A stretch of DNA of 48,869 nt, taken from contig JAIXOQ010000018.1 in NCBI GenBank assembly GCA_027486675.1, forward strand, positions 1 to 48,869. Reading direction: 5' to 3'. Positions 14,226 through 14,528 of the stretch are shown here, piece by piece; the first letter of the stretch is position 1; the number at the start of each line of letters is the position of its first letter. The translations under genes and the position numbers were made by a program. Source of the DNA: Pseudomonadota bacterium (GTDB lineage Bacteria > Bdellovibrionota > UBA1018 > CAIMNF01). The notes below the pieces were generated by a model. That model searched no databases. It saw only the letters and a program-made list of their open reading frames with translations, and was not told the origin of the DNA.

Positions 14226-14301
14226 GAGCCTATAGCTCAGTCGGTAGAGCATTTCACTTTTAATGAAAGGGTCGAAGGTTCGAATCCTTCTGGGCTCACC
14301 A
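14226..14301 (+). tRNA. tRNA-Lys (UUU), CCA encoded
   Basis: The 76-nt cloverleaf folds fully. The acceptor stem pairs GAGCCTA with TGGGCTC (one G-U pair). The D arm is GCTCAGTCGGTAGAGC. The anticodon stem TTTCA/TGAAA holds the loop CTTTTAA with anticodon TTT. The T arm is GAAGG-TTCGAAT-CCTTC. Discriminator A is followed by an encoded CCA (14299-14301). The 3' end, from the acceptor stem to 16 nt beyond the CCA, recurs in the nearby repeats at 14502-14528 and 16380-16406. Confidence 0.97.
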
Positions 14302-14317
14302 CTCGAATGTCGGTCCC
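14291..14317 (+). repeat. Copy 1 of a 27-bp repeat, overlapping the tRNA-Lys 3' end
   Basis: The 3' acceptor strand of tRNA-Lys, its CCA and the next 16 bases form one unit that reappears in opposite orientation at 14502-14528 (22 of 27 identical) and at 16380-16406 (25 of 27 identical). The shared part runs past the tRNA end, so it is not just tRNA homology. Confidence 0.75.
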
Positions 14318-14355
14318 CCCTGTCTGTAACAAAAATAATTTTTCTACACTTTGAA

Positions 14356-14465
14356 CGCTCTATCCCTGGTGATGCCTTTTGCGAGGCAGGCGCATCCATG
14401 CGCCTATCGTTACGCTTCCAGCTCCACTCTTTTAGCCTCGCAAAGGCATCACCAGGGATAGAGCG
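14356..14465. repeat. Long inverted repeat (31/32-bp arms) with nested hairpin
   Basis: The left arm is 14356-14387. The right arm 14435-14465 is its reverse complement except for one missing T, beginning CGCTCTATCCCTGGTGATGC. The 47-nt loop holds a second perfect hairpin at 14388-14405 (AGGCGCAT CC ATGCGCCT). The outer flanks also mirror each other, with copy 1 (14291-14317) and copy 2 (14502-14528) of the tRNA-end repeat at similar distances. The whole 14291-14528 block is therefore an imperfect palindrome of about 238 bp with no gene in it. It resembles a miniature non-autonomous element or a large RNA hairpin. Confidence 0.8.
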
Positions 14466-14501
14466 CTCCTCGTATGGAGATCATTTTCGTTAGCGAGAGA
14501 T

Positions 14502-14528
14502 GGAACCGGCATTTGAGTGGTGAGTCCC
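14502..14528 (-). repeat. Copy 2 of the tRNA-Lys-end repeat (left of ggt)
   Basis: This has the same core as the copy at 16380 (CCGGCATTTGAGTGGTGAG here) and the same orientation, 24 of 27 identical. It is inverted relative to the tRNA 3' end. It forms the right edge of the palindromic block and the left direct repeat flanking the gamma-glutamyltransferase gene. Confidence 0.75.

Follow-up and report, generated by a model that had tools for sequence, protein, structure and literature searches.

Organization of the tRNA-Lys locus

The window, by which we mean the whole stretch of 48,869 nucleotides analysed here, contains tRNA-Lys(ttt) as its sole tRNA gene, and a large palindrome begins inside the 3′ end of this gene (Table 1). 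The inner arms, of 32 and 31 nt, form 31 pairs with one bulge; an outer mirrored pair has as its left copy the final 10 nt of the tRNA together with 16 nt of trailer. The earlier note had described the inner repeat with its nested hairpin and the outer pair that starts in the tRNA end. Both descriptions are borne out. The two palindromes merge into a single hairpin of about 236 nt. On the plus strand, the 251-nt stretch has a folding energy of -142.6 kcal/mol (z -15), and the minus strand gives a similar result. The ungapped inner arm reaches a palindrome score of 24, whereas the best score was 14 when the window was simulated 30 times with a first-order Markov model. The palindrome is thus far beyond chance. 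A Pfam search of the minus-strand ORF that overlaps it gave no domain, and the miRNA-type matches returned by Rfam at a permissive threshold were judged to be chance.

The apex, designated type T1, reads GAGGCTAAAAGAG...CGATAG...CATGGATG...GCCTC on the minus strand. The inverted tRNA copy is intact up to tRNA position 67, then degraded, and is followed at 14536–14548 by GATGAGAAAGCGG, which is similar to the junction of the Escherichia coli rtT repeats; the junction listed in Table 1 resembles GGATGAGAAG at the equivalent place in rtT and in the tRNA-Gln copy of the source genome. Both are short matches and suggestive only.

Table 1. Positions of the tRNA-Lys unit and of related elements in the window
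Feature	Position	Strand	Support or remark
tRNA-Lys (UUU) gene, anchor of the unit	14226..14301	+	ARAGORN; Rfam RF00005, 77 bits
Outer left arm: tRNA-Lys positions 67–76 plus 16 nt of trailer	14292..14317	+	
Inner left arm	14356..14387	+	
Conserved apex, type T1: GAGGC-TAAAAGAG-hairpin-CGATAG-hairpin-GCCTC	14383..14439	-	Also at C33 and at two sites behind tRNA-Arg(TCT)
Nested hairpin GGCGCATCCATGCGCC within the apex	14389..14404	+	
Inner right arm	14435..14465	+	
Outer right arm (INV): inverted copy of tRNA-Lys 3′ end and trailer	14502..14527	-	
Inverted tRNA copy (degraded remainder), with junction GAT-GAGAAAGCGG	14528..14548	+	Short match, suggestive only
Gamma-glutamyltranspeptidase gene (ggt) between both inverted copies, possible passenger	14603..16309	+	Pfam PF01019
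Second inverted copy of the 26-nt tRNA-Lys end	16380..16405	-	
Second, independent core of the tRNA-tail unit family	47156..47277	-	R1 28.9 bits, E 1e-4

Related palindromes in the source genome

The T1 apex is present at four places in the source genome: one is in the window, one at C33:128516-128573, and two on C12, behind tRNA-Arg(TCT). The arms differ between these copies, yet are self-complementary within each of them. The earlier note regarded its reading as lost if the genome held no other copy and relatives no conserved pairing; the apex recurs three more times. At least 11 of the approximately 40 tRNA genes carry a long palindrome no more than about 250 nt from their 3′ end, a count that takes in tRNA loci and homology matches, and the same scan gave almost none in the remainder of the 1.5-kb flanks or in shuffled windows.

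The tRNA 3′ end itself serves as the left arm of several of these palindromes (Lys, Arg(ACG), Gln, His and Ser). Their apices belong to at least three types, besides plain terminators, on which the His and Ser palindromes are built. A direct repeat of the tRNA 3′ end is present at Arg(TCT) and Ser, and the copies at Arg and Gln end at tRNA position 59. An inverted copy followed by GAGAAG is clear at L060 and L078, and this junction, found in the tRNA-Gln and tRNA-Arg copies, is also that of E. coli tyrT-tyrV. A blastn search with the apex against 40 genomes matched the source genome only; pattern scans of genome-contig and viral-contig collections gave no match, and plasmid and phage collections gave either no match or one to the tRNA part only.

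Palindromes in a relative of the same order

A genome of the same order (G020), identical in sequence to the GenBank MAG JAIEMT01, carries palindromes at 15 of its 30 tRNA loci. Its apex consensus matches approximately 31 places, and the conserved-apex palindromes have arms of about 34–84 bp, most of which begin inside the tRNA. The palindromes of G020 end at tRNA positions 47–66, for which reason the idea of a retrovirus-like primer-binding site, drawn from the Arg and Gln copies that end at 59 in the source genome, was set aside. The G020 apex matched only its own genome in a blastn search of 57 genomes, while a pattern scan of contig collections found JAIEMT01, which is the same genome, and a putative match in one archaeal MAG. 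Since each of the two apices matches by blastn only the genome that it comes from, the apex families seem to be narrow.

A location restricted to tRNAs was rejected, as the hairpins follow protein genes too. In G020, some palindromes extend over the 3′ ends of protein genes, frequently in the form of two hairpins that separate convergent genes. An outer arm at these sites repeats the gene end in inverted orientation, as for a ferredoxin-like gene in L181. Paired giant palindromes with opposite apex orientation were observed at L163, L166, L177, L179, L182 and L185, several of them between convergent protein genes and with outer arms copied from the gene ends.

Complete units and their conserved core

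Relatives contain complete units, which we call tRNA-tail units, with the order tRNA 56–76, terminator or palindrome, inverted tRNA 76–54, structured core, and direct tRNA 56–76. They measure mostly about 175–350 bp. The inverted copy runs from position 76 back to 54 or 59, with T54 as its limit in many tRNAs, and the direct repeats, of about 19–45 nt, start at a fixed tRNA position between C56 and A58. The core is hairpin-rich, conserved, and about 110–130 nt long. At a given tRNA, some species of a genus have the unit and others lack it. The tRNA-Pro site of G010 holds other DNA, so that it provides no clean empty site for comparison; downstream of this tRNA (L254), the other strand may encode a large serine recombinase, a putative assignment made by eye.

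A covariance model of the core, R1, was built from 12 sequences, and its E-values are rough owing to a short calibration. It has matches in 64 of 291 genomes of the phylum, with up to 10 per genome, tandem matches included; L069 is among the loci at which the core is present. Among the 30 best R1 loci, 25 have a gene directly upstream on the same strand that is a tRNA (24 loci) or a tmRNA (one); two of the other five (L302 and L304) start right where the contig does, so that any tRNA upstream would lie out of view. The inverted copies score on average 13.2 against their own tRNA and 6.9 against other tRNAs, and the own tRNA is the unique best match at 16 of 25 loci.

Across 37 sequences, 91.3% of the cells of the core structure are paired (29–38% in slid controls) and 183 cells are double-changed (21–30 in slid controls), as counted on a structure re-derived with RNAalifold from alignment A5, which was fitted to R1 and so favours its 12 pairs; the re-derived structure adds pairs absent from R1, such as a helix between the inverted and the direct copy. 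One core follows the tmRNA gene of G050 (L300, 971–1647), which makes tRNA-like 3′ ends as a whole the apparent target. Behind tRNA-His in G213 (L305, 1380–1841), units of exactly 200 bp stand in tandem, comparable to the 178-bp tandem of E. coli rtT.

At the tRNA-Lys unit of the window, R1 reaches only 5.2 bits (14401–14424), which leaves no recognisable core, and a direct repeat of the tRNA 3′ end, sought behind the tRNA-Lys gene, was not found. The window copy is therefore best read as a decayed or partial tRNA-tail unit, assigned to the class by its apex, its inverted copy and its position.

Turnover of the arms

In the sister species G002 and G008, the units at tRNA-Pro are 96% identical in the apex and 91% in the core, and only 56% in the arms; despite this divergence, the arms are self-complementary in each species. 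No other result argues as strongly as this joint turnover for the copying of one arm from the other. The arms of 34 palindromes in G020 comprise 1503 pairs, of which 1486 are Watson-Crick (98.9%), 7 are G-U and 10 are mismatches. So few G-U pairs suggest recent copying of DNA, since far more of them should remain if RNA pairing were under selection. The arms thus point to DNA-level copying by template switching rather than to selection on an RNA, although the same picture could in principle result from very strong selection on perfect pairing.

Template switching is a documented route for making and maintaining hairpins (PMC8794818), and it produces arm homogenisation and spacer inversion (PMC8604942). 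Identical arms and joint change between related loci, by which such hairpins are recognised, were both observed in relatives; joint change was judged there, the window copy having no close relative for comparison. The apex is sometimes reversed relative to the gene (L133, L105b and C33), as spacer inversion by template switching predicts (PMC8604942). At L105 (342–479 and 415–1218 (-)), two apex palindromes of opposite orientation surround an ORF of 267 aa, located between tRNA-Lys and the second palindrome, whose product is by eye a putative SIR2-type protein. The palindromes resemble the described template-switch hairpins (PMC8794818, PMC8604942) in their near-perfect arms, in the joint change of both arms, and in a spacer inverted relative to the gene. 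They differ in that template switching, deduced here from its products, would act on dispersed bacterial repeats and would extend into tRNA and gene 3′ ends.

Comparison with known systems

The closest likeness in layout is to the rtT repeats of E. coli (RttR, Rfam RF00391), which also lie behind a tRNA, at tyrT-tyrV. There, direct repeats AATCCTTCCCCCACCACCA, equal to tRNA 58–76 and spaced by 178 nt, start in the T-loop at position 58, and an inverted copy of tRNA 59–68, GGGGAAGGAT, is followed by GAGAAG; GC-rich hairpins with AGCGAGAGAGCG-type linkers and tandem 178-bp units complete the resemblance. The units of the phylum differ in being located at many tRNAs and at tmRNA, with longer inverted copies and often with giant palindromes, and the window copy differs from rtT in having no direct repeat. 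The R1 model does not match rtT, and RF00391 has no match in the window, L078, L204 or L305, while it gives four in E. coli. As the two models do not cross-match, our claim is of the same layout, not of the same sequence family; by layout, rtT appears to be of the same class as the tRNA-tail units.

Integrative elements that target tRNAs use tyrosine integrases with a crossover in the T-loop. They share with the tRNA-tail units the tRNA and tmRNA 3′ ends as targets and direct repeats that begin in the T-loop and extend to the 3′ end; the units differ in that they are small, at only about 200–330 bp, have no integrase, contain an inverted copy of the target, and form one family at many different tRNAs. 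REP/BIME and MITE repeats are dispersed, non-coding, lineage-specific palindromes close to gene ends, as are the units, whose arms, in contrast, are locus-specific and copied from the adjoining gene end. In the literature outside subscription journals, no report of such tRNA-tail units was found.

Proposed explanation

We propose, with a little more belief than doubt, that the tRNA-Lys feature belongs, in decayed or partial form, to a class of non-coding tRNA-tail units which enter tRNA and tmRNA genes at the 3′ end or duplicate that end, that the arms of these units are kept by template switching, and that rtT belongs to the class by its layout. A complete unit would restore the tRNA end by its direct repeat (from about C56 to A76), the original tRNA end standing last, after the core. 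During replication, the nascent strand would fold back on the hairpin and copy the tRNA side, which would keep the arms identical and extend them outward into the tRNA. Because the tRNA is under selection it would remain the donor, and the outer arm would turn into an inverted copy of it. The anatomy, the recurrence, the tRNA-specific copies, the differing presence within a genus, the joint turnover of the arms and the covariation of the core are observed. We infer template switching as the agent and, likewise, the mode by which the units spread; their origin may lie in insertion at the T-loop by an integrase-like, target-primed or copy-choice step.

More tentatively, and with rather more doubt than belief, the units may constitute a previously undescribed class of bacterial mobile element that recognises the T-loop of tRNA and tmRNA in general, inserts at position 55/56, and copies the target end both directly and inversely, so that one family can occupy many tRNAs; rtT would then be a stranded relative. 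The direct and inverse copies could arise at insertion, through such routes as target-primed synthesis with snap-back or the use of folded single strands. Under the proposal of tRNA-tail units, rtT would be one case of a phylum-wide layout that involves many tRNAs and tmRNA, has its boundary fixed in the T-loop and contains a core that covaries, which makes its origin testable. The tRNA-anchored palindromes may also offer a natural record of template switching in bacteria: as the tRNA is a frozen donor, they would show which way each copying event ran and how far it went.

Alternative explanations

A simpler, though rather unlikely, explanation is that tRNA-Lys simply ends in a transcription terminator hairpin, which template switching has enlarged to the palindrome, with the apex as a terminator module and nothing mobile. 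The location at gene 3′ ends, the CTCTTTTA/CCCTTTTATG runs that follow the hairpin in the direction of the gene, the paired hairpins between convergent genes, and the plain terminators beneath the His and Ser palindromes are all consistent with it. A terminator, however, accounts poorly for the same apex behind unrelated tRNAs and confined at the sequence level to one genome, which indicates that the apex has dispersed, for its occasional inversion relative to the gene (L133, L105b and C33), or for the core and direct repeats added in the complete units of relatives. The earlier note had suggested a miniature mobile element (MITE) or a structured RNA. A conventional MITE, moved by a DNA transposase and bounded by terminal inverted repeats and a short target-site duplication, would be non-coding, palindromic, repeated several times per genome and present or absent between species, as these units are, and the palindrome of the window has multiple genome copies of its apex (four places). 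Its ends, however, vary from copy to copy and equal the adjoining tRNA or gene end instead of constant terminal inverted repeats, no target-site duplication is left at the palindrome in the window, and the direct repeats of relatives span about 19–45 nt from a fixed tRNA position. The locus-specific ends largely exclude it, and we hold it very improbable. The mobile half of that suggestion was nevertheless the better one: copies of the apex, palindromes behind many tRNAs, units bounded by direct repeats, and their presence or absence within a genus agree with it.

The other half, a non-coding RNA processed along with the tRNA and with pairing maintained by selection on the RNA, finds agreement in the core of complete units, whose covariation is strong (pairing in 91% of cells, compared with about 33% in slid controls), and in E. 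coli RttR, which has the same layout and is annotated as a small RNA. The arms, in contrast, behave in relatives like copied DNA, nearly free of G-U pairs and entirely different on both sides between sister species; a transcript running through them would have its tRNA 3′ end trapped, and the window copy has no core. An RNA of this kind is thus improbable as an account of the tRNA-Lys feature.

Other elements in the window

A further inverted copy of the 26-nt tRNA-Lys end, missed in the earlier note, is located past the ggt gene. Together with the segment at 14501–14533, it forms 33-bp direct repeats (85%) that flank ggt (14501–16411), a possible passenger between the inverted tRNA-Lys ends. 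The second core of the window sits just after a strong terminator palindrome (47292–47359), both within 47156–47359 on the minus strand and with no recognised tRNA adjoining; it is perhaps a remnant beside a lost tRNA.
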